In this document: positions 706 through 28,555 of the stretch, piece by piece
How the letters are laid out: each line of letters begins with the position of its first letter
Numbering within the stretch: position 1 is the stretch's first letter
Assembly (NCBI GenBank): GCA_002238825.1
Contig: MPNC01000002.1
Location: forward strand, 115,180-179,179
Origin: SAR202 cluster bacterium bin87
Lineage (GTDB): Bacteria > Chloroflexota > Dehalococcoidia > Lucifugimonadales > UBA3495
Direction of reading: 5' to 3'
DNA length: 64,000 nt
The notes under the pieces: generated by a model
What the model saw: only the letters and a program-made list of their open reading frames with translations
Databases searched by the model: none
Told to the model about the DNA's origin: nothing
Position numbers and translations under genes: made by a program

Positions 706-2124
706 CTAGGGAAAGGTGAAGCCCAATCGGTGAGATTGGGGCGAACTGCCTGTGGTTGCCGGATTGGATGCGTCCGACAAAACCGCGTCGGGGCCGGCGG
801 AATCGTCATCAGCCAGGACGTACACCACTTTGAGCAGTTTGCCGCCCACGCAGAACACCATGTACACGAACAGGAACATGGCGTGCCACACGTATCCGGA
901 GTCGAGACGCGCCATCACTTCCTCGCGGGTGTAGCCCAGAGCCTCGAAGTCGATCTCCCAAGATCCCAGCAGGTTGTGGTCCGGCAGTATCCGGGGAACA
1001 TCCGGCGAAACGTACATTATGAAGATGGTGAGCATCCCCGCGATGCTCAACACCAAGGCGGAGGCGAAGGTTGCGGGCAAAAGGAAACGGCGCTGGCCCG
1101 GCGTCGGGTTAACCGAAGGGTCCTGCAGCACCATAACGGCGCCCATTATCCCGCCCAACACCGCGAACACCACGGCCGACTGGATCCAGACCGAGATGTT
1201 GGAGAGCACCATCACGACCACATAGGACACCAGAATCGGCGGGAGCACCGCCCAGACTGTCCGCCCCACAACTCCGTCCCTGCCACGATTTCCCTGATTT
1301 GTCCACCGACCCAACAGGTGAAACATTACCCCACCCAGTCCGGCCGTGGCGAGGCACACCAGGAGGGTCAACATGTACGGCATGTGGGTTCCGTAGAAGT
1401 CGCGCATCGCGTAGAACCCGAAGTGGTCCATATCCAGGGGGGCGAACTGCAAAGTGGGAACCGCCAGGGCGAAAAACAGGGAGACCCAGAAGAAGTCGCG
1501 TAACCCCGCGGTCCGGTCGGGCCCGAGCAGCCCCTGTGCCAGGACCAATGCCGTCGTCACGCACACGTAGGCGATTGGCATCCAGTTGGCGTTCCAGCCG
1601 AGTGCGCCCAGGCCGTGTCCTGCTCCAACGATGAACACTGCCAGCGGAAGGATCCGGAGCAGCATCAGGCGGCCCAGCGAGCCCAGGATTGAGCGCTCGT
1701 CATCCGTTCCTGGATCCGGCGACACTTCACTTGCGTCCAGGCGGCTTCCGGCGTCGGCCGGCCCGTTGTCCGTCACCGCGCCCTTGACGACCATGCCAAC
1801 TTCGCTGCTTGCGGAAGCCATGTCCGGAGCCAGTCCCGCCAGCAGGATGAGGCCGGCGGTTTCCGTGTCCGACAGGTTCAGCGCCGCTCCGAAAGTCTTG
1901 ATTCGGTCAACGCTCGGTCGGACGGTCCCCGCTTCCCACCGCGAAACGGTGGCGTGGCTGAACCGCTCACCGTAGCCACCGTCGACGGATGCCATGCGCC
2001 GGAGTAACCCCTCCTGGGACAACCCCACCCTGCCGTTTTCGTCCGCGTAGGATTCGCGGTACGCACGCATGAGGAATCCGACCTGGGCGTGCCTGGCTCT
2101 TTGGAATTCGCGATCTGTAACCAC
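706..2124 (-). CDS. XRE-type helix-turn-helix protein with polytopic membrane domain
   Basis: The 472-residue protein has an N-terminal HTH region (about residues 12-85). It includes the stretch SHATVSRWEAGTVRPSVDRI, typical of Cro/C1-type recognition helices. A polar linker follows, then about eight or nine hydrophobic segments from residue ~145 to 450. It should be a membrane-tethered DNA-binding regulator, though no ligand domain is recognised. The start is a GTG without a clear ribosome-binding site. It was chosen because the paralogue at 30355 begins at the equivalent place, 17 residues before the shared MRAYRES. Both paralogues share motifs such as PLDMDH/PLSMDH and LPDHNL in the membrane part. 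The gene is divergent from the giant surface protein gene starting at 3074, so control of that gene is plausible but unproven. Confidence 0.88.
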   Translation of the reverse strand: MVTDREFQRARHAQVGFLMRAYRESYADENGRVGLSQEGLLRRMASVDGGYGERFSHATVSRWEAGTVRPSVDRIKTFGAALNLSDTETAGLILLAGLAPDMASASSEVGMVVKGAVTDNGPADAGSRLDASEVSPDPGTDDERSILGSLGRLMLLRILPLAVFIVGAGHGLGALGWNANWMPIAYVCVTTALVLAQGLLGPDRTAGLRDFFWVSLFFALAVPTLQFAPLDMDHFGFYAMRDFYGTHMPYMLTLLVCLATAGLGGVMFHLLGRWTNQGNRGRDGVVGRTVWAVLPPILVSYVVVMVLSNISVWIQSAVVFAVLGGIMGAVMVLQDPSVNPTPGQRRFLLPATFASALVLSIAGMLTIFIMYVSPDVPRILPDHNLLGSWEIDFEALGYTREEVMARLDSGYVWHAMFLFVYMVFCVGGKLLKVVYVLADDDSAGPDAVLSDASNPATTGSSPQSHRLGFTFP

Positions 2125-3073
2125 GATGTGCGAACAGCCTCAAATATCGTGCGTAAGGCAACCTGTTTCGACCCGGGGAACTATCTATCCGCGTAATGCG
2201 GTTGGTCAGCTTAATATTGCTCGCATGGTTAGGCATGCAGCGTCTTCGTGGTTCGTCATTATACTTGCAGTGAACGTGCGTTGTGAGTCCGGCGGGCGGC
2301 AGAGGCACAACCGCGTGCGCGTACGGAATCGACCCCGCCTGGATGGCATCGTCGCCGGTGTTTTCCCACACCAGCCAGGTGACGACTAGGGCCGCTGACA
2401 CGGACGCGGCGCAGACCTCCGTTGCGGTGGTGAGCCAGACAGTCCCGCTCGACTCGGCGGCAAACCGCGACCATCGCCCGGGACGACAACGTAACCCGAC
2501 CCCGCCACCACCGGTCATTGATTGTGCCGCTGCGGATATTCAGTCATCCCCTGTCGGGGCAATTCCGTTCCGATTTTTCTGACCTCCGATCTGTGGGCGG
2601 TGAGACCCACCCGGGCATGATCGCCGTCGGAACGGCTCACCGTGAGAACTGCGTCGTCTGCACACGCCTTGCATCACATGTGGCGAGACACCGCAAGTGT
2701 CATGCACAGCGAGATGGCCCTGCGGTCGGGCGACCCGCGGGCGCCAGGCCGGAACCGGTTGGCGGTCGCCCGTATTGGCGCACCAGAATGCACGCCATTT
2801 GCACAATCCTGGCAACCGCGATTCCGCGTCAAATGCGGTGATTGTCAGAGAAAACGGGTGCAAACCTCTGTTTGAAGTGTCCGCAAGTACCCCCGGCTCG
2901 CGGACACCGCAAGCACAAGTTCGTCCCTGAGTGGCCTGTCATAGCCTGGATGGCGACAGCGTGCCAGCATCTTGGCGCTGTTTCGGCAGGTAGAACCCGG
3001 GCCGCCCGATCATCCTCGGATCCCAAGGCGATGGGCGATCCTTGTGGGCCTCCATACAGCGGATGCAGGCGCC
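2125..3073. other. Intergenic region between divergent regulator and surface-protein genes
   Basis: About 950 bases hold no convincing gene. Short open frames on both strands lack ribosome-binding sites and domain similarity. The one structure seen is an inverted repeat with 8-bp arms (GTGTCCGC at 2877-2884 and GCGGACAC at 2900-2907). It could be an operator or a hairpin in the leader of the gene at 3074. No strong sigma70 promoter was recognised. Confidence 0.4.
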
Positions 3074-6000
3074 ATGTTCTGGACGAACAACTCAAAGAAA
3101 CTCGGACTCATCGCCCGGTTGCGTGCCAACCTGCGGGTCTCGCTTGCCGCTGCGGCCGTCACTCTGGCGGTGATTGGGATCCTGGCCTGGACGTCGTCCG
3201 GGGCGCAGGCCGCATCGACGCAGAAACTGATCGGCAACGTTGACCAGGCAGAAGACGGCGTCATCTATCTGAACCACGGGTCCCATGGATTCGGCCAAGA
3301 ATTCGCCACGGGCAGCGCCAGGGGCGGTTACCTACTGGACCACATCAAACCGCCCATCAAGAAGAGCCGCGACGGCCGCTGGGTCAAGATAACCGGCACC
3401 ATCCGCAGGGTGAACGAGGACGGCGGCCCTGGAGAAATCGTTCACACGGTGGAAGACGCCGACGCGTATTACAACCACAACGACTTCACCTTCGTCTCGC
3501 GGGAAACCCAGGTATTGATGCCCAACACACGCTATATGTTTGTAATCACCTGCGACAGCGGCTGCGAAGGCGACAACTTTCTGAAGTTCACCAAGACCAG
3601 CGCGGACGGCAAGGACGCTGACAGCAGAGACGATTGGTCGCTGGCGGAGCGGGCCGTGCATGACTGGTACGACTGGCTGCCAACGGACGATTACCCCTAT
3701 TCCCTGATGTTCGACCTGCAGGGAAGGCTGGCGAACGCCGCGTACATAGCTGACGACGGGGTCCAGATCATCTCCGAACCCATCGCCTCCTCAGATGGGT
3801 ACGGAGATGGCCCCACCGAAATCGTGATCACCACGACTCGGCCCGATCACCCGTCCCGGAATTACGCCGTCAGGGTCGCCCAGAATCTCGTCCCGGACAT
3901 CACCGAGATACGATTGACCAGCGATCCGGGCGCCGACGGGACCTACGCCACCGGCGATGTCATCAACGTCGCGGCAACCTTCAATGCCCCGGTGGCGGTA
4001 GACACCACCAACGGCGTCCCCTATGTGGGCATCTCGGTGGGAGACAATCTCCGGAACGCCTCCTATACCTCCATCGACGCCACCGGTAAGGTACTGACAT
4101 TCTCCTACACGGTTGTGGAGGACGACAGCGATCAGGACGGCATCTCCATCGCCGCCGATGCGTTGACGCTGGACGGCGGGTCCATCACGGCCCAAGTGGG
4201 CGGTGCAGATGCTGTCCTCGACCATTCCGCCCTGACCAGCCAGGCCGGCCACATCGTCAACAAGGTTCCGAAGATCGTGACCGGAGGTGTGATGATTACA
4301 TCGACGCCATTGGCTGCGAGCGACACCTACGGCAAGGGCGAGACCATCGCGTTCACCGTGACCTTCGATTCCAACGTGGTGGTGGACACCACGGACGGGA
4401 TACCCACCCTGTCCATGGACTTCTGGCATCGAGGCGGCAACCTCGAGATCAAGGAGCTTACCTTTGTCCGCGGTTCCGGCGGCAGGTCTCTGGAGTTTGA
4501 ATACGTGGTGCGGCCGGCGGACCGGGACAACTCCGGCCTCGTCGTCAAGCAGAATCAGCTGCGACTCACCGGGGGCAGCATCCAACACGCCACCACGGGG
4601 CGCGATGCCGTTCTCGACCACCCCCGCCCTGTCTATGGAGGGGACCACAAGGTGGATGGCCGGCTGACGCCGCCGCGCGCGCAACTGAGCAGCCTGTCGT
4701 TGACCAACGCCACGCTGTCGCCTGCTTTCGACCCAGCGACCGCCGAATACACTGCCATGGTGGCCCCGGGCGTCACCGAGACCACGGCCACTGCCACGGT
4801 GCAGGCGGGCTATACCGCCAGCATCGAGCCGGCCGACGCCGATTCCAGCGCCTCCGGACACCAGGTGGCCGTCAGCGACGGCGCGGCCATCACCATAACC
4901 GTCGCGGCGACCGGCAAACTTCCCATCGAGTACACCGTGACCATAATGGTCGGTACGATGGTGGACAGCGTCGCCGTCACCAGCGCCCCCGGCGCCGACG
5001 GCACCTACGCCACCGGAGACGTGATCAGCGTCGCGGTGACCTTCAATGCCCCGGTGACGGTGGACACGACGGACGGCACTCCCTACGTGGCCGTCTCGGT
5101 GGGAGACAATCTCCGGAACGCCGCCTACGCCTCCATCGACGCCACCGGCAAGGTGCTGACCTTCTCCTACACGGTTGTGGAGGACGACAGCGACCAGGAC
5201 GGCATATCCATCGCCGCCGATGCGTTGACACTGGACGGCGGGTCCATCACGGCCCAGGTGGGAGGCGCCGATGCCGGCCTGGACCACGACGCCCTGGCCA
5301 GCCAGGCGGGCCACATCGTCAACAAGGTGCCCAGTATCGTGGCCAACGGGGTGGCCGTGATCTCGTCCCCGCTGGCGACTGCCGACACCTACGGGGAAGG
5401 CGAAACCATCACGTTCACCGTGACCTTCGAATCCAAAGTGGTGGTGGACACCACGGACGGCATCCCGACCCTGGAGATGGACCTCTGGCATCCCGGCGCT
5501 ACTCTGGAGACCAAAGAACTGTCCTACGTTGGGGGTTCCGGGAGCAGCACGCTGGAGTTTCAATATGTGGTCCAGGCCGGCGACCGGGACAACACCGGCA
5601 TCGCGGTGGAGGGCAACCGCCTGAGACTCAACGGGGGGAGCATCAAACACGAGACCACGGGGCGGGACGCGAACCTCAACCACGCCAAACCCGAAAGGAT
5701 CGGGCACAAGGTGGACAGCAGGCTGGATCCTCCCAGGGCCGAACTCAACACACTGTCTTTGACCGACGTCACGCTGTCGCCGGCCTTCGACCCAGCGACC
5801 ACCGAATACACTGCCGTGGTGGCCCCGGGCGTCACCGAGACCACGGCCACTGCCACGGTGCAGGCGGGCTATACCGCCAGCATCGAGCCGCCCGACGCCG
5901 ATTCCGGCGCCTCCGGACACCAGGTGGCCGTCAGTGACGGCGCCGTTATCACCATCACCGCATCCGGGACGGCCAAGATCTCCACCGAGTACACGGTAAC

Positions 6001-9000
6001 CCTGGAGATGGGCATGGTCATGGTGCAGAGTGTCGCCGTTTCCAGCGACCCCGGCGATGACGGCACTTACGCCACCGGCGACGTGATCAGCGTCGCGTTG
6101 ACCGTCAACCAGCCGGTGACGGTGGACACGACGGACGGCACTCCCTACGTGGCCGTCTCGGTGGGCGACAACAGCCGGAACGCAACCTACGCCTCCATCG
6201 ACGCGACCGACAAGGTACTGACATTCTCCTACACGGTTGTGGAGGACGACAGCGACCAGGACGGCATCTCCATCGCGGCAAACGCCCTGTCGCTGGACGG
6301 CGGGTCCATCACGGGTCAGGCCAGCGGCGCGGATGCCGTCCTGGACCACGACGCCCTGACCAGCCAGGCGGGCCACATCGTCAACAAGGTGCCCAGTATC
6401 GTGGCCAACGGGGTGGCCGTGATCTCGTCCCCGCTGGCGGCCGCCGACACCTACGGGGAAGGCGAAACCATCGCGTTCACCGTCACCTTCGATTCCAGCG
6501 TGGTAGTGGACACGACCGACGGGATACCAACCCTGTCCATGGAGTTCTGGCATCCAGGCCGCAATCGGGAGATCAAGGAGCTGGGCTTTGTTCGCGGTTC
6601 CGGCAGCACGACCCTGGAGTTCGAGTACGTAGTCCAGCAGGGGGACCGGGACAACTCCGGCCTCGTCGTCAAGCAGAATCAGCTGCGACTCAACGGGGGC
6701 AGCATCCAACACGCCACCACGGGGCGCGATGCCGTTCTCGACCACCCCCGCCCTGTCTATGGAGGGGACCACAAGGTGGATGGTCGGCTGACGCCGCCGC
6801 GCGCGCAACTGAGCAGCCTGTCCCTGAGCGACGCCACGCTATCGCCTGCATTCGCTCCCGCGACCACCGAGTACACGGCAGAGGTCGGGCCGGCCGTCAC
6901 GCAGACCACCGTCACTGCCACAGTGCTGGTGGGGCACATCGGCAGCATCGAGCCAGCCGACTCCGATGGCAACACCGCCGGCCACCAGGTATCGCTGGCG
7001 ACGGAGTCGGCCACAATCGAAATCCAGGTGATGCGGGCCGGACGGCTCACCGTCACCTACACGGTCGCGGTGAGCAGGACGATGGAGCCTCCTTCCAAGC
7101 CCACGAACCTCACGGCAACGTCGGGGGATGAGACGGCCACGTTGGCGTGGGTGACGCCGCCGGCATTCCCGGCGGTATCCGGCCACGAGTACCGTTACAA
7201 GTCATCGTCTGATGCCGATTATCCCGAAGCCTGGACCGCGATTGCCGACAGCGCGGTCGGTGAGGACAACGAAGATGGTTTCACGGTCGAAAGCCTTGCC
7301 AACGGAGTGGCCCACTTCTTCCAGGTGAGGGCGGTCAATTCGGAGGGCGCCAGCGAACCGTCGGACGAGGCGGCCGTCCTGGTGGGCGAGGGTCTGGGCA
7401 TCTGCGACCGGACGCGAACAGTGCAGGTTGCCATCCTCGAGGAATTGGCAGAGATCCAAGCATTGACAGAGATCCAGGACTGCTCGGACGTTACGTCAGC
7501 GGACCTGTCCACCATACTCGATCTCTACGTGCAGACTGTGGAATCGGAACTGAAGGTGGACGACTTCACCGGCCTGACGGCCATGACCGCTTTGGACCTC
7601 ACGTCCCCGTACCGTCTCACCAGCTTGCCCAGCCGGATTCTTGCGGGACTGCCGGAACTCACTCGCTTGACAATAGAGGGCGTCGACGGCGAATTGCCGG
7701 AGGATATATTCGCGCCCGTGCCCACGCTGACCTCGCTTTACCTGGTTGCAAACCGGTTCACCGCACTGCCGGAGGACCTGTTCAGCGGCCTGTCATCGTT
7801 GTCACATCTTGAACTGGGCGCAAACGGACTGACCGATTTGCCCGAGAATGTGTTTGATGGTCTGACCAGCCTGACGAGCCTTTGGCTGGAGATCAACGAA
7901 CTCACCGAACTCCCGGGCGGGGTCTTTGACGGCCTCTCGGCTTTGACGCGCCTGCACCTGGACCGCAACCAACTGACCTCACTCCCGGTCGGTGTTATTG
8001 ACGATCTGACGGCCCTGGAAAGTCTGACCCTTCACCAGAACCAGCTTAACGAACTGCCCGATGGAATGTTCGCCAACCTGAGCAGTCCGCTGACCCAACT
8101 TAACCTGCGCAACAATGCAACGAACCCGATCCTGCTGCCGGTGGGCCTGGAATCCGTGGGCACTCTACAGTTCAGGGCCGTTGCTCCAAAGGGTGCGCCT
8201 TTCAATATGTGGCTGCCCCTGACTGTAACTGACGGCAGCATCTCCAGCGGCGCCACCGGCGTCACCATCCTTGCCGGGGAAGTGGCCAGCGCCATCGTGA
8301 CGGTGGAGCCCGCCAGCGAGGCAAGCAACCCCACGGTGGCCATCACCAAGGTGCCCGGGACGCCCAACGAGCATGACGGCTACCGGCTGTCGTTATCCTC
8401 ACCGACGCCGCTGCAACTCGAGGATCACCGTCCCCGCATCGAGAGCATTGCGCTCGGCAGCGACCCCGTCAGCGACGACACCTACGTGGCCGGCGACGCC
8501 ATCGAGGTCCTGGTCACTTTCGACAGGGCGGTGCAGGTGGATACCACCCTGGGCACGCCACACGTGGCTCTCACCATCGGGACCGCGACGCGCAACGCCG
8601 AGTATGTAAGCGCGGACGCCGCCGGCAAGGCGCTGACCTTCTCCTACACCGTGGTTCTCGACGACGACGACTCGAACGGCGTGTCCATCGCGGCCGACGC
8701 CCTTGCCCTGAACGGGGGTTCCATCACGAACCGCACGACCGGCGACGACGCCCTGCTGACGCACCAGGCGTTGGCCGACCAGAGCGGACACCTGGTTCAC
8801 AACAGCCAGGAGCGCGCCACGCTCACCGCCCTGTCAATGGCCGGCATCACGCTGACGCCCGCGTTCACGTCCGATGTTGTGGACTACACGGCCACGGTCG
8901 GGCGGGACACCACGGAAACAACCGTGAGCGTGGCGGCGGAAGCCGGCGCCACCGCCAGCATCCTGCCGGCCGATGCCGACACTGCCACCGACGGGCACCA

Positions 9001-10636
9001 GGTTTCCCTGTCCCGCGGGGCCAATGAGATCACGATAACGGTGCGCAAGAGGGGTTTGAGGACGCAGACCTACACGGTCACCATCGACCGCATTTGGGCT
9101 GAGGTCACCAGCGTCGCGTTCACCAGCGACGCCGGCGCCGACAACATATATGTTACCGACGACGTCATCGAGGTCTCAGTTACCTTCGGGGCGCCCGTTG
9201 TGGTGGATACAACCGACGGAACGCCGTACATCGAAGTGCTGATCGGAAACTTCTATAAGCAGGCAACTTATTCGGGGATTGACTCTTCCAACCGCATCCT
9301 CACTTTCACCTATACCGTGACCGCCGCGGACAATGATCAGGGAGGCATTGAGATTGACGCCAACTCCCTGACGCTGGACGGCGGGACCATCAAGCCGCAG
9401 GGCACGGATTTTGACGCTGACCTGGCCCACGATGCGGTGGACCAAGACCCCAAGCACCTGGTCAATGAGATCCCGCTGCTGATAGGGTTCGGCGCCGTAT
9501 CTCTGGTTTCCAACCCCCGGGCAACCCAATACACCTACGGTCGAAGCGAGGCCATCACCTTCAGGTTCGCCTACAGCACGAAAGTGACGGTGGACACCAC
9601 CGGCGGCATCCCCCACCTGCTGGTCTCGGTGGGCAATTCCGACAACACGCCAAGGAACCGGCAGTTCAACTACGCGCGGGGGTCGGGCACCCGAACATTG
9701 GAGTTCGAGTATCTGGTGCAAGCCGATGACCGGGACAGCAATGGCATTGAGCTGGGCGAAGGTCGGCTGCGACTGAATGGTGGCGCCATTAGGCACGCCT
9801 CCACCGGTCAGGCGGCCAGCCTCTCTTACCAGGTGCCAGGGTCCATCACAACTTTCGGCGCGCACAAGGTTGATGGGAGCCTCGAAAATCAAACGATCCG
9901 GGCGTGCGAAGCCGAGGTAATCGATCGCAAGGCGCGCCTGGACATCTGCTGGGACCTGGGGCGGGCTGTGCCCACCGATGCGGACGTGGTCATCGAAGCG
10001 TCCAGCCGGTACCTGTGGGAATGGACAGTCGATTTCGACCTGCCGGTCCAGGAACCTGCCCCCGTATGGAAGGCAATTGCGCGCGGGGACGACTACGTCG
10101 CGTGCGGCGAAATGGACACCTCCTGCATCAAGTTTTCGGACGCCGACATCTTCCGGGGCGCGCCTTTAACCTATGACCTGCGCATCCGCCGGGGTGATAC
10201 CGTGCTCGCCAGATCGCCACGGCTCAGGACCCAGGCTCCAAACTGGGATGACTCCTCGTTGAACGCGGAACTGTACAGCGTCCTCCTGCCGGACAAGCTG
10301 GAGTCATACCCCGACCAGGTGGCCACTGGCCCGTTCCGCACGGACCTGGAGCTAACCGACCCTGAGGTGTCGGGGGTGATGGTGGAGGCAGTGAAGGACC
10401 TGGAGCTCTCCGATTTCGAGGTGACCAACGGCGTCGCTACGGCCATCCAGGTATCCTCCGGCGGCGTGTACGTGATCACCGTCGAACCTACGACACTGGG
10501 CCAGTCGGTGACCATCAGCCTGCCCGCGAACCGGGTGACCGGTGTGGGCCAGGGCCTGACGGCCGACGGGGAGAACAACTACACCAGGGGCAATACCGCT
10601 TCCAACACCTTTACCGTGGAGACCAGGGAGCCCTGA
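3074..10636 (+). CDS. Giant secreted Ig-like/cadherin-like/LRR repeat protein
   Basis: About 2520 residues. The chosen ATG precedes a basic stretch and a hydrophobic signal ending near SSGAQA; the open frame extends 34 codons further upstream without signal-like character. Order: an N-terminal domain (about 45-240) with a CDSGC motif, shared with the genes at 32206 and 42450. Then ~110-residue Ig-like repeats containing TYATGDVI...VDTTDGTPY...LTFSYTVVEDDSDQDG, alternating with cadherin-like beta-sandwich domains near 536-629, 887-983, 1245-1336 and 1914-2006. An FN3 domain lies near 1336-1436 and leucine-rich repeats near 1496-1686. A bacterial Ig-like domain closes the protein. There is no LPXTG or C-terminal membrane anchor. 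It is probably secreted or surface-held and possibly adhesive (inference). Long antisense frames over it are composition artefacts. Confidence 0.9.
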   Translation: MFWTNNSKKLGLIARLRANLRVSLAAAAVTLAVIGILAWTSSGAQAASTQKLIGNVDQAEDGVIYLNHGSHGFGQEFATGSARGGYLLDHIKPPIKKSRDGRWVKITGTIRRVNEDGGPGEIVHTVEDADAYYNHNDFTFVSRETQVLMPNTRYMFVITCDSGCEGDNFLKFTKTSADGKDADSRDDWSLAERAVHDWYDWLPTDDYPYSLMFDLQGRLANAAYIADDGVQIISEPIASSDGYGDGPTEIVITTTRPDHPSRNYAVRVAQNLVPDITEIRLTSDPGADGTYATGDVINVAATFNAPVAVDTTNGVPYVGISVGDNLRNASYTSIDATGKVLTFSYTVVEDDSDQDGISIAADALTLDGGSITAQVGGADAVLDHSALTSQAGHIVNKVPKIVTGGVMITSTPLAASDTYGKGETIAFTVTFDSNVVVDTTDGIPTLSMDFWHRGGNLEIKELTFVRGSGGRSLEFEYVVRPADRDNSGLVVKQNQLRLTGGSIQHATTGRDAVLDHPRPVYGGDHKVDGRLTPPRAQLSSLSLTNATLSPAFDPATAEYTAMVAPGVTETTATATVQAGYTASIEPADADSSASGHQVAVSDGAAITITVAATGKLPIEYTVTIMVGTMVDSVAVTSAPGADGTYATGDVISVAVTFNAPVTVDTTDGTPYVAVSVGDNLRNAAYASIDATGKVLTFSYTVVEDDSDQDGISIAADALTLDGGSITAQVGGADAGLDHDALASQAGHIVNKVPSIVANGVAVISSPLATADTYGEGETITFTVTFESKVVVDTTDGIPTLEMDLWHPGATLETKELSYVGGSGSSTLEFQYVVQAGDRDNTGIAVEGNRLRLNGGSIKHETTGRDANLNHAKPERIGHKVDSRLDPPRAELNTLSLTDVTLSPAFDPATTEYTAVVAPGVTETTATATVQAGYTASIEPPDADSGASGHQVAVSDGAVITITASGTAKISTEYTVTLEMGMVMVQSVAVSSDPGDDGTYATGDVISVALTVNQPVTVDTTDGTPYVAVSVGDNSRNATYASIDATDKVLTFSYTVVEDDSDQDGISIAANALSLDGGSITGQASGADAVLDHDALTSQAGHIVNKVPSIVANGVAVISSPLAAADTYGEGETIAFTVTFDSSVVVDTTDGIPTLSMEFWHPGRNREIKELGFVRGSGSTTLEFEYVVQQGDRDNSGLVVKQNQLRLNGGSIQHATTGRDAVLDHPRPVYGGDHKVDGRLTPPRAQLSSLSLSDATLSPAFAPATTEYTAEVGPAVTQTTVTATVLVGHIGSIEPADSDGNTAGHQVSLATESATIEIQVMRAGRLTVTYTVAVSRTMEPPSKPTNLTATSGDETATLAWVTPPAFPAVSGHEYRYKSSSDADYPEAWTAIADSAVGEDNEDGFTVESLANGVAHFFQVRAVNSEGASEPSDEAAVLVGEGLGICDRTRTVQVAILEELAEIQALTEIQDCSDVTSADLSTILDLYVQTVESELKVDDFTGLTAMTALDLTSPYRLTSLPSRILAGLPELTRLTIEGVDGELPEDIFAPVPTLTSLYLVANRFTALPEDLFSGLSSLSHLELGANGLTDLPENVFDGLTSLTSLWLEINELTELPGGVFDGLSALTRLHLDRNQLTSLPVGVIDDLTALESLTLHQNQLNELPDGMFANLSSPLTQLNLRNNATNPILLPVGLESVGTLQFRAVAPKGAPFNMWLPLTVTDGSISSGATGVTILAGEVASAIVTVEPASEASNPTVAITKVPGTPNEHDGYRLSLSSPTPLQLEDHRPRIESIALGSDPVSDDTYVAGDAIEVLVTFDRAVQVDTTLGTPHVALTIGTATRNAEYVSADAAGKALTFSYTVVLDDDDSNGVSIAADALALNGGSITNRTTGDDALLTHQALADQSGHLVHNSQERATLTALSMAGITLTPAFTSDVVDYTATVGRDTTETTVSVAAEAGATASILPADADTATDGHQVSLSRGANEITITVRKRGLRTQTYTVTIDRIWAEVTSVAFTSDAGADNIYVTDDVIEVSVTFGAPVVVDTTDGTPYIEVLIGNFYKQATYSGIDSSNRILTFTYTVTAADNDQGGIEIDANSLTLDGGTIKPQGTDFDADLAHDAVDQDPKHLVNEIPLLIGFGAVSLVSNPRATQYTYGRSEAITFRFAYSTKVTVDTTGGIPHLLVSVGNSDNTPRNRQFNYARGSGTRTLEFEYLVQADDRDSNGIELGEGRLRLNGGAIRHASTGQAASLSYQVPGSITTFGAHKVDGSLENQTIRACEAEVIDRKARLDICWDLGRAVPTDADVVIEASSRYLWEWTVDFDLPVQEPAPVWKAIARGDDYVACGEMDTSCIKFSDADIFRGAPLTYDLRIRRGDTVLARSPRLRTQAPNWDDSSLNAELYSVLLPDKLESYPDQVATGPFRTDLELTDPEVSGVMVEAVKDLELSDFEVTNGVATAIQVSSGGVYVITVEPTTLGQSVTISLPANRVTGVGQGLTADGENNYTRGNTASNTFTVETREP
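4519..4698 (+). repeat. 180-bp near-identical repeat, copy 1 (copy 2 at 6643-6822)
   Basis: By eye the two 180-base segments differ at only two positions (an ACC/AAC codon change and one C/T). They encode the end of one Ig-like unit and the start of the next cadherin-like sandwich. Similar but less exact copies of the preceding unit lie near 3900-4260, 4970-5330 and 6030-6400. Such low divergence inside an otherwise diverged repeat protein indicates recent duplication or gene conversion. It may also be a risk point for assembly. Confidence 0.8.
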
Positions 10637-11448: not shown

Positions 11449-14400
11449 GTGATCACCAGCACGATAAGCAAGATAACCTTTGCCAACAAAACACTGATTT
11501 TTTCAATCGCAATCCTTTTTGCCGCTCTTCTGCTCGTAATCGGCAGCCACGACACGGTCCGAGCCGGTTCGTTCGCACCCTTCAGGGGTTTCGACCTGCA
11601 CAGCGACCACAACACTCCCGAGGGTGTGTGGTCCGATGGTTCCACCATGTGGGTCCTGTCCGACAACGGGAGTTCGAGCAAGCTGATGGCCTACGGTCTG
11701 GCGACCGGTTCCCGCCTGTCCGCGAAGGACATCACGCTGGCCAGTTACAACGCCAAGCCCCAGGGCATCTGGTCCGACGGCACCATCATGTGGGTCGTAG
11801 ACTGGGACGACGAGAAACTCTACGCCTACAACCTGGATGCCGGCACGCGCATGTCGGACCACGACATCGATCTGGACCACCACAATACGGCTCCCCGGGG
11901 TATTTTGGGCGGCGCCTCCGTCATTTTTGTGGTCGATGTTTCCGATGATTACGTTTACGCCTACAACCGGGCCAACGGCGAACGCTGGCACTTCATGGAA
12001 TTCCACCTGCACAGTGGCAACGATGAGGCCTGGGGCATTTTGTGGCAGGACGGATCGTATTGGGTGAGTGACTTCGACGATCAGATGCTGTACCGCTACA
12101 CGGATCTGGGGTCCGGCCAGTGGGCATCGAGCCCGGCTTTGCGTCTGCCGTTGGAGAACGCCGACGCCAGGGGGATCTGGACGGATGGCGAGGCCATTTG
12201 GATCGTTGACGATAACGACTCTCACGTTTACGCCACGCTGCAAAAGGGTTTCAGGCATCCCGATGAAGACGTCAGCATCAGGGATGTGTCCACCGCCACC
12301 GGCATCTGGGCAGATGGCGAAACCCTGTGGGTCGCGGATTCCGGTGCGGGCACTTTCGGCCAACTCCAGGGGTACGATTTGAGCGACGGTTCCCGCGACC
12401 CGTACGAAATCATCGAGCTGACCGCGACCAACGATGCCCCCGTGGCCATGTGGTCGAACGAGGAGTTCATGTGGGTGGCCGACGATGACAATCGTACCCT
12501 GCACGCCTACGCGCTGGACGGCACGGCCGACTACAGCCCAACAGATACCAAGGTGTTGCCGACCGCGAATTCCGACCCCACCGGCATCTGGTCTGACGGC
12601 AACCTTATCTGGGTCGCCGACTCTGCGGACGACAAGCTGTACGCCTACGAGCTGGGTCAGATGGCACGCCGGTCCGGCCGGGACATCACCCTGGATCCCG
12701 GCAACCAGGATCCGGGCAACATCTGGTCCGATGGCAAAAACATCTGGGTTTTTGATTCGGCGGACCAGCACGCATACGTTTACGGCCTGCGCTCGGGAAA
12801 CCGGAAACCGGCTAAGGAATTCCGACCGGTTCCGGCCAACAGCGACTTCAGCGGCGGGCTGACCGGCCATGGGCTGCGCTTCTGGGTGGTGGACACCGCG
12901 GACGAAAAACTCTTCGCCTACGGCAAGCAGAACACGAAACCCGAATTTGTCGAATCGACGACGCGGTTCACGTTCCTTCACAGCCTGGCCGGCGGCAGTC
13001 TCGTCGGGCTCGCGCCCGAGGCGATCGACGTGGACGGAGATTCACTCACCTATTCCCTCAGCGGCGGTGGCGTACGGTTCCAGATCGATTCTGAGACCCG
13101 CGAGATTCGCACCAGAAACGACGCTACCTTCGATACCATCGGCGAGCGGATTTCGTTGACCCTCTCCGTCACCGACGGCAAGGGCGCACTGGACGACCAT
13201 GATAACAGCGTCGATGCATCGATCATTATCCCGGTGACGGTGGTTGCCAACTACGAACCCGAGTTCGCCACCGCCGACGGCGCGATCTTTGCCGTCGCCG
13301 AGGGTGCCGCGGACACCGTCGTCATCGCAGACCTGGACGTATCAAACCTGGACAGCGACCCACTGACTATCGCCATCAGGAATCAGAACAGGTACCCCTT
13401 CGAGTTGATCGATGGGCAGATCAGCCTCAAGCAGGGCGAGACGCTGGACTACGAAAGCGCTTCCAACTATGAACTGAGGATACGGGTGCGCGACGGCAGG
13501 GATGAATTGGGCGCTGCGGATGAAGCCTGGGACGATGAAATAACCGTCACGGTGTCGGTCACCAACGTGGACGAAGCCGGCGAGGTGTCGGTCAGTTCCA
13601 ACAATCCCCAGGTGGACACTGACGTCTGGGTTTCGCTGTCCGACCCCGACGGATCTGTCGCCAACCTCAGATGGCAATGGCAGAGGGCCGACTCCCCCGA
13701 TGCCACCACCTGGACAGATATCCCCGGGACCATCTCGGCTCGCTACATTCCGGTTTCCGACGACGCCGGAAAGTTCCTGCGCGCCCAGGCGTCCTACGAC
13801 GACGGCCAGGGTACCGGCAAAACGGCCCACGACACCGCCAGCAACGCGGTGCTGGCCGCCCCTCCCACCAATCAGCCGCCGGCTTTTGACGATGGAGCGT
13901 CGGCCAGTCGCTCGGTTGCGGAGAGCGCGGAAGGCGGCGACGCCATCGGCACAGCCATCGGCGCCACGGACCCGGACACCGGCGACACCCTGACCTACGG
14001 CCTGACCGGCAGGGACGCCAACCAGTTCACCATCGACGCAACGACCGGACAGATCTCGCTGGCCGCGTCCGCATCGCTGAACCATGAGACCAGTCCTTCG
14101 CACAGCGTCCGAGTTCGGGTGCGTGACAGCAAGGACCCGCACGGCACGGCCGACGCCGAGTGGGACGCCAGCATCGCGCTGACCATCACCGTGACCGATG
14201 TGGACGAGGCCGGTGTCCTCGGGTTCACAACCGAAAATCCGCAGGTTGACCAGGAACTGGGCGCCTTCCTCACCGACCCCGACGGCTCCATCAGCAATCT
14301 CATTTGGCAATGGCAGAGAGCCGATACCGCCGATGCCACCACCTGGACGGACATCAGCGGCGCAACCTCGGGAGACTACACTCCGGTGTCCGACGACGAG

Positions 14401-16365
14401 GGCAAGTTCCTGCGGGCGAATGCGGCCTATGATGACCGCAATGGCCAGGGCAAATCCGTAAACGAGGTGGTGACCAACGCCGTGCAGCCGAAGCCGGCCA
14501 ATCAGCCGCCGGCATTCGACGAGGGCGCCAGCACAACCCGCTCCATCAGCGAGGACTCCCTGACCGGAGACCCAGTTGGGGCGGCGGTGAGCGCGTCGGA
14601 CCCGGAGGGTGACGGTTTAACCTACTCCATGGGCAGCGGCACGGACTCTGATCACTTCGACGTCGACCCCGCAACCGGGCAGCTGAGCGTTGCGCCCGGA
14701 GCCTCTCTGGACTTCGAGGGCAAGCCGTCCCTGGAGGTTGCGGTGCAGGTGGCGGACGGGAAGGACGTCAGCCACAACCCCGACACCGCGGTTGATGCAA
14801 CCATCACGGTGACCGTCAATCTGGTCAACGCCGATGAACCGGGCAAAATCGCCCTGTCGTCAACCGATGCGGAGGAAGCGGTTGCCCTGACGGCATCCGT
14901 AACCGATCCGGACGGCGGTGTCGCCTCCATCACGTGGCAGTGGGCCAAGTCTGAGGACGGCGCCACCGGCTGGGCAGACATATCCGATGCGGCCACGGAT
15001 ACCTACACTCCGGCCGCCGTCGACGCCGGCGCGCATCTTCGAGCGACCGCGCAGTACACCGACGCAGAGGGAGCGGCCAAACGGGCATCCTCCTCCGCCA
15101 CCAACCCGGTGGTCGGCGTCGATAACGAGCCACCCCGGTTCCTGGAGGGCGAAGGCGCCGAACGCTCCATCGCCGAAAACGCGCTTGCCAGCGCCGCGGT
15201 CGGGGTGCCAATTGCCGCGTCCGACCCCGAGGGTGACTCGCCGACCTACTCGTTGGCCAGCGGCGGCGATTCTGACCAGTTCACTGTTTCAACAAGTTCC
15301 GGTCAACTTTCGGTGGCTACGGGCGCCGCCCTGGACTACGAGAGCAAGTCGGTCCTGGAAATAACGTTGCAGGTTTCCGACGAAAAGGATGCCGACGACA
15401 ACCAGGATGCGGCTGTCGATGACACCATCACCGTGACCATCAACCTCACCAACATTGACGAACCTGGAGAAGTGAACCTGTCGTCCGCGCGACCGGAGGT
15501 CGGTAAGTCTCTCATCGCATCACTCACCGACCCCGACGGCAGTCTGACCAACGCCACCTGGCTCTGGGAAAAGTCTGGAGACGGAGTCGGAGATTGGGAA
15601 AGCGTCAACGGCGGAGCAACCGATACCTACACCCCGGTTTTGGAGGACCAGGACATGTACCTGCGGGCGACCGTCCGCTACACGGACGGCCAGGGCACTG
15701 GCAAGAGCGCCGCAAAGACGTCCGGCAACCGGGTTCAAGCCCCGCAGCAGGTCTCAGTCAACCCGGCCCAGGCCGCCCTCAGTTTCTACGAGCAGTGCCG
15801 GAGCGATGCCCGTCGAGACCTCGCGGCGCGATGCGGGATGAACGAATTCGCCGCTTTCCGGGTCGAACTGGACGGCAGCTATACCATCGACTGGAGCGAT
15901 TGGGACCGCCAACATCCCAACGTGACGGGCTACACCATCGTCCTGGGCAATATGGTTTACCGGGCATACTTCCAGGACAACTCCCAACTGACGCACAGCG
16001 ACACTGAGAACGTTTACGAACACTGTGAGTTCGTGAACGGACGGTGGGATTGCCGGGGTCGCCTGAACAGCGTCTACGATGAAGATATGAGCGGCGAGCC
16101 GACTGAAAGTGGCGTTGTCGCTGCCGGGACCGACCAAACGCAGTGGACCTCTGCCCTCGACAAGCCGGGCCTGTGGGTGTCCGAGCACACGTTCCATCGA
16201 TGGTCCGGAGATGCTACCGACCCCGCCAACGAGCCGACTCCGGTTACATACGTGACCAAAAAGTTCGAGATGGACTTGTACCGCTTCATTGCGCACGGAG
16301 TTCCCGGAGGCTACGGCACCGTATTGATCGACGGAACCAACGGTTTCTTCGAGGTTAGGGAGTAG
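11449..16365 (+). CDS. Secreted ten-repeat propeller/cadherin/Ig-like protein (paralogue 1)
   Basis: 1638 residues starting at GTG. GAGGG lies eight bases upstream, and the same leader and start context occur at the paralogue starting at 26974. A signal/anchor segment (about 12-32) is followed by ten repeats of ~45 residues up to about residue 500. Their core is GIWSDG..MWVxDxxDxKLYAY, as expected for a beta-propeller. Next come alternating cadherin-like repeats and four Ig-like modules with WQW...TWTDI...YTPVSDDxGKFLRA. The C-terminal ~170 residues form a domain with four cysteines (EQC, ARC, EHC, WDC) and DGSYTIDWSDW, shared by the two paralogues. No sorting signal was found. It is probably an extracellular binding or structural protein; ligand and localisation are unknown. 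Confidence 0.9.
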   Translation: MITSTISKITFANKTLIFSIAILFAALLLVIGSHDTVRAGSFAPFRGFDLHSDHNTPEGVWSDGSTMWVLSDNGSSSKLMAYGLATGSRLSAKDITLASYNAKPQGIWSDGTIMWVVDWDDEKLYAYNLDAGTRMSDHDIDLDHHNTAPRGILGGASVIFVVDVSDDYVYAYNRANGERWHFMEFHLHSGNDEAWGILWQDGSYWVSDFDDQMLYRYTDLGSGQWASSPALRLPLENADARGIWTDGEAIWIVDDNDSHVYATLQKGFRHPDEDVSIRDVSTATGIWADGETLWVADSGAGTFGQLQGYDLSDGSRDPYEIIELTATNDAPVAMWSNEEFMWVADDDNRTLHAYALDGTADYSPTDTKVLPTANSDPTGIWSDGNLIWVADSADDKLYAYELGQMARRSGRDITLDPGNQDPGNIWSDGKNIWVFDSADQHAYVYGLRSGNRKPAKEFRPVPANSDFSGGLTGHGLRFWVVDTADEKLFAYGKQNTKPEFVESTTRFTFLHSLAGGSLVGLAPEAIDVDGDSLTYSLSGGGVRFQIDSETREIRTRNDATFDTIGERISLTLSVTDGKGALDDHDNSVDASIIIPVTVVANYEPEFATADGAIFAVAEGAADTVVIADLDVSNLDSDPLTIAIRNQNRYPFELIDGQISLKQGETLDYESASNYELRIRVRDGRDELGAADEAWDDEITVTVSVTNVDEAGEVSVSSNNPQVDTDVWVSLSDPDGSVANLRWQWQRADSPDATTWTDIPGTISARYIPVSDDAGKFLRAQASYDDGQGTGKTAHDTASNAVLAAPPTNQPPAFDDGASASRSVAESAEGGDAIGTAIGATDPDTGDTLTYGLTGRDANQFTIDATTGQISLAASASLNHETSPSHSVRVRVRDSKDPHGTADAEWDASIALTITVTDVDEAGVLGFTTENPQVDQELGAFLTDPDGSISNLIWQWQRADTADATTWTDISGATSGDYTPVSDDEGKFLRANAAYDDRNGQGKSVNEVVTNAVQPKPANQPPAFDEGASTTRSISEDSLTGDPVGAAVSASDPEGDGLTYSMGSGTDSDHFDVDPATGQLSVAPGASLDFEGKPSLEVAVQVADGKDVSHNPDTAVDATITVTVNLVNADEPGKIALSSTDAEEAVALTASVTDPDGGVASITWQWAKSEDGATGWADISDAATDTYTPAAVDAGAHLRATAQYTDAEGAAKRASSSATNPVVGVDNEPPRFLEGEGAERSIAENALASAAVGVPIAASDPEGDSPTYSLASGGDSDQFTVSTSSGQLSVATGAALDYESKSVLEITLQVSDEKDADDNQDAAVDDTITVTINLTNIDEPGEVNLSSARPEVGKSLIASLTDPDGSLTNATWLWEKSGDGVGDWESVNGGATDTYTPVLEDQDMYLRATVRYTDGQGTGKSAAKTSGNRVQAPQQVSVNPAQAALSFYEQCRSDARRDLAARCGMNEFAAFRVELDGSYTIDWSDWDRQHPNVTGYTIVLGNMVYRAYFQDNSQLTHSDTENVYEHCEFVNGRWDCRGRLNSVYDEDMSGEPTESGVVAAGTDQTQWTSALDKPGLWVSEHTFHRWSGDATDPANEPTPVTYVTKKFEMDLYRFIAHGVPGGYGTVLIDGTNGFFEVRE

Positions 16366-17688: not shown

Positions 17689-20600
17689 TTATCGCTGCGT
17701 CCCAGATACCGAGTTGAAGGAAGCCACGCCGGCAACCGTTACCGTGTGACTATCGTGCGCAGAGCCTCCCGATTTTGGCGTGAAGACGTAACGGTCCACT
17801 TCCACGTCTTTGAGGGCGTAAGTTACCGCTGTGGGTTCCGTCTCAGGATCTCCATTCCACCGGAAGAGCGTTTGCTCGCCCGATACAGATCCCAGCGTTT
17901 CCAGGGCGGAACTCCACTGGGTCCGCTTGAGGTTCGTCGACAACGTGCGCGTTTCCGTTGGCTCCCCGGAACCGTCCACATGATGGACGTGGACCACCGG
18001 ATCCTGACAATTCCAAAGCCCGTCGGATGACTCGCAACTTTCGTACTTGTTATCCAACCGGGAGATGCTGGCCCCGCCGTTGCGCCTGTGATAAGTCCGG
18101 TACACGAACTGCTCCAGGCTAACCGAATAAGCGTTAACGCCAGGATGCTCGGATGCCCAGTCGCTCCAGTCGATGGTGTAGCTGCCATTCAGTTCCACCC
18201 GGTAGTCGGCGAAATCACCGGCGCCGCAATGGGACACCAGGAACGCCGACAAGTCGCTGTTGCAACTGGCCAAAAGGGTTTCCGAGGAACCGCGCCGGTC
18301 GATCGCTATCACGTACTCTGTGGACGCATCGCCGTTGTCATCGGAGACGGTAATGTTGATCTCGTTCTCGCCTTCCGACAGGTCGACCTGGTGCCCCTGC
18401 TTAGTGTCGCTGCTGTCGACGGGTGAAATCGCAACCGTCACCCCTGACTCAGCTGAGGCGACCGTTTTCACCTTGATTTGGGAGGTCGAGTTGGGCACGC
18501 TGAGGGTGTATTCCAGCGTGGCGCCGTTCAACGAGAACGGGATCCTGTTGAATCTGAGCGACTTCAGGGTCGTGTCGACGCCGGCGAGCGTTTGCACTGT
18601 GTTGGAGGACACCTTCGAAGCTGATTTGCCCGAACCCTCGCCGTCGGTATAGGACGCCGTGGCCCGCAGGAACATTCCACCGTCGTCCGACACCGGCGTG
18701 TAGGTGCTGGAAGTGGCGCCCGTAATATCCGTCCATCCGCTTTCCTCGATGGCAGCGCGGGCCCATTGCCAAGTGATGCCAATCAGGCTTCCGTCCGGGT
18801 CGGTCAGGGTGGCCGTGAGCGCTTGGCCCTCCGATGGCTCCGTGGATGACAGGTCCACCAGTCCCTCCTCGTCCACGTTGAGCAGGTTGATCGTAACCGT
18901 GATGGAGTCGTCAACGGATCTATCGTAGTTGTGGTGGGCGTCCTTGAGGTCGGATACCCGCAACACCACCTCGAGGGATGGCCGGGTTTCGTAGTCCAGA
19001 ACGGCCCCGTCCACCACCAACAACCGTCCGTCGGTAGTGTCCAGCAGGAACTGGTTCGAGTCCGGCCCTGTGGCCAACGAGTAGGAGAGGAAGTTTCCTT
19101 CCGGGTCATTGGCCGCGACGGCGGCGCCCACCCAGGTTGCGGTGGTTGCATCCTCGCTCAGAGACCGGGTGGCGCTGTCTCCCTCATAGAATTCGGGCGG
19201 CGCGTTGGCGTCACGATCCAGCACCGGGCTGGCGGCGGTGTGTTCAGCCGTACGTCCAGCGCCCAGCACATCGTCGTAGGAGGCGACCGCCCGCAGGAAC
19301 TTGCCGACATCGGCGCCGACAGGGGTGTACCTCGCGGTCGTGGCGTCGGCGATCTCGGCCCAGTTGTTCGACGGGTTGCTGTCGGCACGCTCCCACTGCC
19401 ACATCAGGTTGGTCACCGATCCGTCAGGGTCGTCCAGACGCGCGGTCAGGGTATGGCCTTCCTTCGGAGACTCAGAATCCGTGGCGACGGTTCCCGGTTC
19501 CTCCGCGTTGGTTATCCTCACGGTCACGTTGATGAACGAGTCCCATGAGATTTCCGATTCCGCGTTGCCGCCGGTGTCCTTGCCGTCATGCACCCGCATT
19601 CGGAATTCGTAGGAGGCCTTGTCCTCGAAGTCCAATTCCACGTTCGCGCCCACGCTGATCTGACCGGTGGACGCGTCAACCTGGAAATAGCCCGCCTCCG
19701 CGCCGATGATACCGTAGGTCAGGGAGTCGCTCTCGGGATCGGTGGCGGTGATGGGGTCACCAACGTTGCTGCCTCCCGCCGCATCCTCGGCGACCGAACG
19801 GGACGCGGAGTAACCATCGTCGAAAGCTGGCGCCCGGTTGGTTGGCGGTTCAGCAAGGACGGGGTTGGCAGTGACGACGGTGGTGACCTGAAGGGTGTCG
19901 GAGTCGTGGTTATCCCAGTAGCTGGCCCGGAACCGCAGGTATTGCCCCACGTCGTCCGCCACTGGCGTGTACTCCAAAAGCTTGGTGTTGCGGTTTCTGT
20001 TGACGACGGCTTCCCAGGTCGTAGCGTTGGGATCGGCGCTCCGGCCCACCTGCCAGTTGATCTGCCGGCTGTTCCCGAAGTCAACGCCGTCCGGTTCCAT
20101 AAGCGTGCCGGTTACAGCCTCGCCGACCACGGGCAGTGAGCTGCTCAAGGTGATTTCGCCCGCCTCCGCAACGTTGTTGACCTGTATTGTCACGTCGATC
20201 TGGTCGTCCCACGAAGTGTCCGCGTTGTCGTCCGGGTCCAGGTTGTCCGACACGCGGATGGTCAGGTCGTAGGTCGTCTTCCTCTCGTAGTCCAGGCTTT
20301 TTCCGGGCTGGAGCTTGATCGCCCCATCGGTGATGGCGAACGGGTTGCGCGGGCTCAAGCTCAGGTCGTAGATCAGCGGGTCGGCGTCCAGGTCCTCAAC
20401 CCCGAGTTGGGCGATGACGTCGGCATTCGTGATGCCCTCGTTCACCGTGAACGTCGATCCGCTGGCGGTCGTGAACACGGGGTCAGCGTTGTGCAGCACC
20501 CGGACGTTGGCTATCAGCGTGTCGTCCACGCGGTTGTCGGTGTGATTGAGTCCCCGCTTGCCATCTTTGACGGTAATGGCGACGTGGAACTCGTCGCCTC

Positions 20601-26974: not shown

Positions 26975-27875
26975 GGTTATATCCCTCTCGCAGCCTGGGC
27001 ATTTATGGCTGCCCAAACCGCTTTTTCAGTTATGGTTGCGATTGCTGTTATTCAGTTGTTGTCAACGATGGTTGTTCGATCGTGACCTCCTTGCCTTGTC
27101 CGGTACACCCGGCAAACCCGTGGGGTTGGGCAGTGTCCAAAGGGTGTCCCCTCGGCACGCCGTCGAACCGCATACGCCATCCCTGGCCGTCATCTGTAAA
27201 ACCGGACGTGTATTGGCGGAAACGGCGCACACCGCATGGCGCCACGTCGCCCATTGCGCCGGTACAGCACGCCGGAGGCTGGACAGGGAACTCTGGTGGA
27301 GAGCCGCCAGCACGGGGGTATACCCGCCTGGACGCCTGACGCCGTCAGCGTTGCCCCGAAATCAGGGGCGGCATGCGACGGGCAATACCGGAATGCCCGG
27401 GTCTATTGACTTATGATCACGCTTCTCATGGTGAAATCGATGGCCTCTCTATCATTTAGCCCCCCTATGTGGGAGGCGTTATCAAATGCGGGCGGGCGCC
27501 GCGTCGGCACGGATGCCACGAAAGCGTGATCCACCTGATTCCATCCTACGGGGCGTTACGGGAAAAGGGTGTGCGTTCGCACAAAACGGACGCCAACGTG
27601 CTCAGTGCATCCGCCGCGTGCACACGCGCTTCCAAGCCTGATGGACACCGGAATGCTTACCGAGTGCGTCGTCAGCGGGACCGGGTCGCAGCGGCGGCGA
27701 TAGCGCCGGCAACACCGACAATGGTTGAGCCTCAATCTTCTGGGGCTGGGAACGATCTCGGGGCGAGTTGACGGCTCGCCCGCGGCGCTTCTGGCAGATT
27801 ACCCGGTGTTCTCCGGATCAGGATCTTATCCTGAAACCGGGCGCGACCGGCGCTCGCGGCCGCCGGCAGCGTCAA
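26975..27875. other. Intergenic region upstream of paralogue 3
   Basis: Nothing here reads as a gene. Near 27456-27475 there is a GCCCCCC-TATG-GGGAGGC imperfect palindrome, loosely like the one at 10926. At 27818-27834 TCAGGAT-CTT-ATCCTGA forms a tight 7-bp hairpin 42 bases past the response-regulator stop and may be its transcript end. The ~85 bases before 26974 form the conserved leader shared with the gene at 11449. Confidence 0.35.
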
Positions 27876-28541
27876 TCACTCGCGGTCCACGTACCCATCC
27901 AGAAGTCCGTTCCGCACGGACCACAGCACAAGTCCCTGCATCGTCCCCACGTTGAGCTTTTGTTGAATGCCATAGATCGCGTTCCGGACGGTCACCGGCT
28001 TGATCCCCCTGGCTTCCGCGATTTGGGCGTAGGACATACCAGTAGCGAAAGCGGTCAGAATCTCGCGTTCCCTGGCGGTCAGTTCATCGGCAGATTCCGT
28101 TCCGGGCCGTCCACGGATCGATGCAAAGGTCCTCTGAACCAGGTCGACGGGCAGACGAAGCTCGCCACGCGCCACGCCCCGCACCGCCGCCAGGAATTGT
28201 TGCCGGTCCGTTCCTTTCTGAAGGTACCCGGTGGCGCCGGCGGCCACGGCATCCACCACGGCGTCCTCCTCGGTGGAGGCCGTCAGCATGATCACCCGGG
28301 TATTGGGCGCGGCTTCAATGATCTCCCGGCACGCCATCGCGCCATCCTTGTTCGGCATCATCACGTCCATAACCACCAGGTCCGGCGACACCTCGGCGGC
28401 AATCCTCACCGCTTCATTGCCGTCCGCCGCCTGACCCACCACCTCAAACTCGCCCGATTGTTCGAGCACCTGCTGAAGGCCGATCCGCATTATGGAATGG
28501 TCATCAACGATCATCACCGTGGTTCGCTGCTGCGATGGCAT
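27876..28541 (-). CDS. NarL/FixJ-type response regulator (LuxR-type HTH)
   Basis: 221 residues from an ATG with GAGGGGG upstream; the open frame extends further but overlaps the kinase gene. The receiver domain (about 7-125) has the acidic pair D13-D14, the phospho-acceptor D59 in VVMDVMMPNKDG, the conserved Thr in VIMLTAS, and Lys109 in YLQKG. The C-terminal LuxR-type helix-turn-helix (about 150-212) has LTAREREILTAFATGMSYAQ and IKPVTVRNAI. It starts 14 bases after the stop of the histidine kinase gene, so the two are surely co-transcribed and form a two-component system. Target genes are not shown by the sequence. The nearest are the surface-protein genes and the HTH/membrane regulator gene. 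Confidence 0.93.
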   Translation of the reverse strand: MPSQQRTTVMIVDDHSIMRIGLQQVLEQSGEFEVVGQAADGNEAVRIAAEVSPDLVVMDVMMPNKDGAMACREIIEAAPNTRVIMLTASTEEDAVVDAVAAGATGYLQKGTDRQQFLAAVRGVARGELRLPVDLVQRTFASIRGRPGTESADELTAREREILTAFATGMSYAQIAEARGIKPVTVRNAIYGIQQKLNVGTMQGLVLWSVRNGLLDGYVDRE

Positions 28542-28555
28542 TGCGGTCCCCCTCG

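Follow-up and report, generated by a model that had tools for sequence, protein, structure and literature searches.

The well-studied transmembrane transcription regulators (TTRs) carry a winged helix of the OmpR type and a single membrane helix. Here we describe two regulators of another build, encoded in a 64,000-nucleotide stretch of the genome of SAR202 cluster bacterium bin87 (Chloroflexota, Dehalococcoidia; contig MPNC01000002.1, positions 115,180 to 179,179; hereafter the window), each of which lies beside a gene for a giant exported protein. Regulator 1 (HTM1, 472 aa) is encoded at 706..2124 on the minus strand and regulator 2 (HTM2) at 30355..31770 on the plus strand; both join an XRE-type helix-turn-helix (HTH) to a predicted eight-helix membrane domain. 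Because TTRs were defined by Demey et al. as proteins with a DNA-binding domain and at least one membrane region (PMC10269533), regulators 1 and 2 are TTRs. Like ToxR, TcpP and CadC, they combine a DNA-binding domain with membrane helices in a single chain and presumably act on promoters from the membrane; they are unlike them in the number of helices, in the N-terminal XRE domain and in a membrane domain that belongs to no named family. The first-pass annotation of the window had considered membrane-bound regulators of this shape uncommon. This does not hold for polytopic TTRs as a class, as 27% of the 50,302 TTRs of Demey et al. were assigned to the class richest in membrane regions (PMC10269533).

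Nearer in shape are DadR, CadR and HcdR of Eggerthella lenta, LuxR proteins with 12 transmembrane segments for which deletion revealed activation of neighbouring genes (PMC9734109). They too are polytopic membrane regulators with many paralogues per genome, encoded near the specific target for which they are required. They have, however, a C-terminal LuxR HTH, 10-12 helices and metabolic enzymes as targets (PMC9734109), whereas the present family has an N-terminal XRE domain, eight helices and, as likely targets, secreted or surface proteins; no LuxR match was present among 26 family members, which places the family outside the DadR type. The HTH finds its closest solved fold in MltR of Chloroflexus, an MmyB-like protein of the same phylum with an N-terminal XRE domain (Caur_2278, PDB 3pxp; Z 10.1, 2.2 Å over 81 residues, 30% identity). 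MltR continues into a soluble PAS-like ligand domain, with a fatty acid in the crystal (PMC3406030), where the present family has its eight-helix membrane domain; none of the 26 members matched a ligand-domain family, so that they do not belong with MltR either. A further relation is to the choice-of-anchor R proteins (NCBIfam NF041539), whose definition includes no regulator, and whose head domain is found in the giants beside both window regulators. In the literature searched, which lay mostly outside subscription journals, no earlier description of the regulator family was found. Thus, transmembrane regulators are an already known kind, while this membrane module, its gene pairing and the candidate operator described below appear to be new.

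Predicted architecture

Regulators 1 and 2 are paralogues, with 50% identity in aligned columns (47% by genome search), and the first-pass description of each as an XRE-type domain followed by about eight membrane segments was borne out. The Pfam model HTH_31 matched both proteins (E=3e-5 and 8e-7), with regulator 1 alone scoring slightly below the Pfam cut-off (24.7 vs 27), and it was found in 24 of 26 family members; the DNA-binding domain is therefore recognised. Hydropathy analysis gave eight hydrophobic peaks in each regulator, and AlphaFold, run on an alignment of 26 sequences from the window and the family loci, predicted eight membrane-length helices C-terminal to the HTH. In regulator 1, the HTH is encoded at about 1795-2124 and the membrane domain at about 799-1698; in regulator 2, the membrane domain is encoded at about 30787-31686. 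For the latter protein, a 577-aa open reading frame (ORF) starting at 30037 was also considered, and was discarded as over-extended in favour of 30355-31770. The full-length model consists of the HTH, a disordered linker (residues 112-144) and a helical membrane part (pLDDT 75, pTM 0.59), and the membrane part modelled by itself scored higher (pLDDT 82, pTM 0.84).

The charges of the loops are compatible with a predicted eight-pass topology with the N-terminus inside. The mean number of lysine and arginine residues is 2.2, 3.9 and 3.3 in the inner loops vs 0.0, 1.0 and 0.0 in the outer ones, and in the last outer loop a mean of 2.2 such residues stands against 6.2 acidic ones. The conserved residues of the membrane domain concentrate in two predicted outer loops, between helices 3 and 4 (MDxYGFY) and between helices 7 and 8 (PDHNLLxSWxIDFxxLGYTxEEA).

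A scan of the 26 members against Pfam and NCBIfam models returned no match for the membrane domain, and no solved fold was found for it at E<=0.001. The best Foldseek hit had an E value of 0.37, and no relation is claimed; VIA-align gave a best Z of 6.9 over 109 residues, followed by GPCR-like bundles at Z ~6, a commonly seen range. Four genomes (L111, L113, L114 and L115) encode the second half of the membrane domain with no HTH attached, joined instead to a conserved tail some 120 residues long. A winged-helix reading of this tail was unsupported by Pfam or by a PDB sequence search, which gave only unrelated kinesin matches.

Distribution and divergent gene pairing

The source genome (4.96 Mb, 67 contigs) contains five paralogues. 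The two seen in the first pass are both in the window, and the other three, on contigs C9, C49 and C43, are 40-42% identical to regulator 1. A pattern scan of 84,980 species-level genomes returned 29 loci, all from Chloroflexota. Whole-genome searches gave a match in 24 of 250 genomes of the same order of Dehalococcoidia and, at class level, in nine of 393 genomes, four of these matches being weak or very short; a search with the membrane domain in 400 genomes across the phylum returned the source genome only. These genome counts are lower bounds, as only a limited set of candidates was scored in each genome. Homologues were thus found only in Chloroflexota, and essentially in one order of Dehalococcoidia. 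Judging from isolate names, several of the genomes with homologues presumably come from sponges.

The gene neighbourhood was scored for 31 copies, including 26 of the 29 scan loci. The three loci left aside were L058 (intact, missed by the gene caller), L059 (split at a contig end) and L061 (a fragment). Proteins were called exported by a hydropathy rule, which asks for a hydrophobic segment close to the N-terminus and few elsewhere. The upstream neighbour was divergent from the regulator in all 31 copies, and was of the exported type in 22 of them, compared with 15 of 70 for the other divergent pairs of the same loci (p=4e-6). The other XRE genes of the source genome served as a second control: out of 25 HTH_3 matches, three were the regulators themselves, 20 others were retrieved and 14 could be scored (five were not called as genes and one lay at an edge). 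Half of these (7/14) were divergent from their neighbour, and only one (1/14) was divergent with an exported neighbour (p=8e-5 vs the regulators). By homology, the partners form ten groups, seven of them exported (22 loci) and three not (nine loci); with a base rate of 0.22, this gives p=0.0016.

Within the window, each paralogue adjoins a giant with a CxxGC head, exactly as first annotated: regulator 1 is divergent from its giant (2124/3074) and regulator 2 is co-directional with its own (31770/32206). The first pass had further taken this repeated pairing to join the regulators to the CxxGC-headed surface family, and had proposed a neighbourhood survey of homologues. The association with surface or exported genes is indeed what the survey gave; its restriction to CxxGC proteins is not. 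Four of the five source-genome copies adjoin an exported-protein gene, and only the two window copies adjoin the CxxGC family; the giant beside the C9 copy is a CARDB/DUF11 protein, the partner of the C49 copy is a YscW-domain lipoprotein, and others differ again. In addition, five of the eight CxxGC-head proteins of the source genome have no such regulator adjoining. What is kept across species is the pairing of a given type of regulator with its own partner: the C9 type with an exported protein of 347-373 aa and a giant in three genomes, the C49 type with the lipoprotein in three genomes, and the C43-like types with one kind of gene in five copies, which we take to be gamma-glutamyltransferase-like. 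One C49-type partner (L025:8013-9179), a lipoprotein, shows a strong match to the YscW domain (PF09619, E 5e-31).

Nine loci of other genera have as partner a secreted protein 267-320 residues long, in which four cysteines are conserved. Its profile matches the C-terminal domains of three giants of the window (11449-16365, 17689-22308 and 22568-27016; E 1.3e-9, 1.4e-11 and 2.9e-13, respectively), which sit between the two regulators, and also proteins near the regulators in L043, L109 and L107. The four-cysteine domain is present in 16 of the 250 genomes of the order, 15 of which have the regulator; expressed the other way, it occurs in 15 of 24 genomes with the regulator vs one of 226 others (Fisher p=4e-17). 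Shared ancestry inflates these p-values, and the count by genus (7/12 vs 0/85, p=6e-8) is the fairer one. No good Pfam match was found for the domain; its solo form gave a sub-threshold match to DUF4148 only.

A candidate operator

Expectation-maximization (EM) motif analysis of the DNA upstream of 17 representative copies yielded the motif AAGTCTGTGCA; with a palindrome constraint, the result was weak on 120-bp upstream sequences and clearer at 300 bp. Allowing up to one mismatch, the motif occurs 19 times in 779 kb, and 15 of these occurrences, all in one orientation, are within 23 kb of regulator-upstream DNA, an enrichment that is partly circular because the motif was learned there. The candidate sites lie mostly 50-300 bp upstream of regulator genes of several subtypes. 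As an exact dyad, the signal was weak in 20 regulator-bearing genomes (17 sites vs 7 in the reversed control) and strong only in the source genome (5 vs 0), hence the need for a longer pattern. Its 27-bp form, AAGTCTGTGCA-N10-TGCACA, with up to two mismatches, gave 15 sites in 50 family genomes vs 4 in the reversed control.

Twelve of these 15 sites fall in three genomes (G000, G538 and G544), and a genus census showed the C9-type regulator in exactly these three. G540, the closest to G538 by its IspH sequence (97.4%, five sequences compared), has neither the C9-type regulator nor the site. Of the 12 sites, three belong to the promoters of the regulators themselves. Genes for an 800-aa exported protein and for choice-of-anchor R giants account for two upstream sites each, as do a small conserved operon and copA with its divergent neighbour; the remaining site is near an exported ORF. 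Upstream of copA, an exact site is present in G000 and G538 alone; the 11 other orthologues, including that of regulator-bearing G544, show at least 6 mismatches. The divergent promoter between a copper P-type ATPase and an unnamed protein of 674-719 aa contains the 27-bp dyad in two genomes, at 9847-9873 in L131 and at 9833-9859 in L135.

The window contains a single dyad of the form TGTGCA-N12-TGCACA (0.04 expected), located at 31869..31892 between regulator 2 and its giant. At the corresponding place in L043 the sequence is TGCGCA-N12-CGCACA, so that the element is conserved in a changed form. A single motif for all subtypes was considered and rejected, since the regulator 1, C49 and C43 types differ and carry their own conserved upstream blocks instead. 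The divergent intergenic region of regulator 1 and its giant (2125..3073) contains blocks conserved in L033 and no copy of AAGTCTGTGCA. Three C43-type regulators (L027, L052 and L053) share a perfectly conserved upstream block, CGGGATACAATGCA, perhaps a different operator or a promoter.

Other genes of the window

The giant divergent from regulator 1 (3074..10636, plus strand) has a CxxGC head followed by cadherin-like and leucine-rich repeat (LRR) domains, and its ATG start at 3074 is conserved in L033. The CxxGC head corresponds to the choice-of-anchor R model NF041539, against which this giant scores under the cut-off (25.4 vs 30). The giant downstream of regulator 2 (32206..42306, plus strand; 40.4 bits) and the exported protein encoded 143 bp behind it (42450..45692, plus strand; 62.1 bits), both with a CxxGC head, exceed it; the two genes are probably co-transcribed.

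The three giants with the four-cysteine domain are encoded at 11449..16365 (plus strand), 17689..22308 and 22568..27016 (both minus strand). The first shows propeller-type repeats, recognised by eye, and cadherin domains ahead of its C-terminal four-cysteine domain; the other two are of the same propeller/cadherin type, and the start of the last may be further in.

A histidine kinase gene (HisKA_3 and HATPase domains, five predicted membrane segments; 28556..29800, minus strand) is divergent from regulator 2, and adjoins the gene of a LuxR-type response regulator (27876..28655, minus strand; start possibly further in), in the same order as in L043. The same pair, or the kinase, recurs beside the regulators of L043 and L049, with exported genes downstream. 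Finally, the window encodes an 891-aa protein (46487-49162), which appears to consist of two CaiB/BaiF-type CoA-transferase domains in one chain.

Proposed mechanism and alternatives

We propose, with a probability of roughly 0.6, that the window proteins are membrane-tethered one-component transcription regulators that act locally, through dyads, on themselves and on the adjacent exported-protein gene. The XRE HTH would lie in the cytoplasm, connected by the flexible linker to the eight-helix membrane domain, and the two conserved outer loops (helices 3-4 and 7-8) would sense a signal, either at the membrane or outside it. A dimer of the regulator may then bind short dyads in the promoter region adjoining its own gene, and so control both itself and the neighbouring gene for an exported or surface protein, either positively or negatively. 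Some paralogues might also act on distant genes preceded by the same dyad and, given the tight pairing, feedback from the secreted partner itself is conceivable. As for the labels of the first-pass annotation, which spoke of a dedicated envelope-sensing switch, both the sensing and the switching are what we infer from this arrangement.

Several observations weigh against this proposal. The export rule is crude. The divergent neighbour is not exported in nine of the 31 copies: in five it is the presumed gamma-glutamyltransferase-like gene, in three (regulator 2, L043 and L049) a histidine kinase, and in one (L034) another gene. The three copies divergent from a kinase have exported genes downstream, including a giant for regulator 2 and L043. 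Among copies recovered later, L107 and L109 have a divergent neighbour that is not exported, and the divergent arrangement itself is missing from L108 and L112. As to the dyad, four of the 12 sites are by copA or the small conserved operon, away from surface genes, and regulator 1 and the C49 and C43 types of the source genome have no motif copy. The half-site centres are 16 bp apart, which is wide for an XRE dimer (~10 bp in the MltR dimer; PMC3406030), and two dimers or another binder are therefore possible.

If the neighbourhood merely reflects descent, the proteins could be ordinary membrane regulators of something else, e.g. lipid state, and the exported genes would hitch-hike with them in genomes where giant surface genes abound. 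In favour of this account, 76 of 344 locus genes count as exported under the crude rule used above, five copies adjoin housekeeping genes, and paralogues found in the same context have a common descent. It would not readily explain why seven of ten unrelated partner families are exported, why all 31 scored pairs are divergent when only 7 of the 14 control XRE genes are, or why, in a set of 250 genomes, the four-cysteine partner follows the distribution of the regulator, and we regard it as unlikely. A slightly better case, still a doubtful one, can be made for the dyad belonging to another, cytoplasmic regulator of the same three genomes, with the membrane proteins using other sites that went unrecognised. 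The unusual half-site spacing, the presence of copA and of the small operon among the targets, the paralogues devoid of the motif, and the copA promoter of G544, which lacks the dyad even though the regulator is there, would all fit such a protein. On the other hand, the position of the sites, mostly within 50-300 bp of regulator genes of several subtypes, and the joint absence of regulator and sites from G540, so near to G538, point to the membrane proteins themselves.

The membrane domain might also be a transporter or an enzyme rather than a receptor, the HTH serving for autoregulation only, as in a trigger-type regulator-transporter. The domain is compact and has no large outer sensor domain, and conserved acidic and aromatic residues occur within and between its helices, which would suit such a function; yet neither the model scan of the 26 members, in which no transporter family matched, nor the fold search gave it any support, and we consider it improbable. 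Our preferred reading remains that of membrane-tethered regulators acting locally on their own gene and on the adjacent exported gene.

Conclusions

A wider picture can be drawn, which we offer tentatively. In sponge-associated Chloroflexota, the order-specific polytopic sensor module may have come to control a modular system of surface proteins locally: every paralogue would lie head-to-head with one or a few secreted adhesin-like proteins, read the conditions for them and set their level through a TGTGCA-type dyad. The module, which would also occur fused to a different, presumably cytoplasmic tail, might in this way let the symbionts choose their outer coat by means of parallel membrane switches.

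To our knowledge, the regulation of the giant adhesin-like proteins, which are enriched in sponge symbionts, is an open question. Cadherin and fibronectin III proteins are enriched in metagenome-assembled genomes (MAGs) associated with sponges, and such domains have been tied to host attachment, the available passages of that study naming no regulator (PMC8163846). Candidates for the regulators, their likely targets and the operator have now been named, and the control of these surface proteins is therefore directly testable. In addition, because the regulator gene and its likely target stand side by side, the family is a natural case for studying how a membrane-anchored transcription factor reaches the promoter it acts on.

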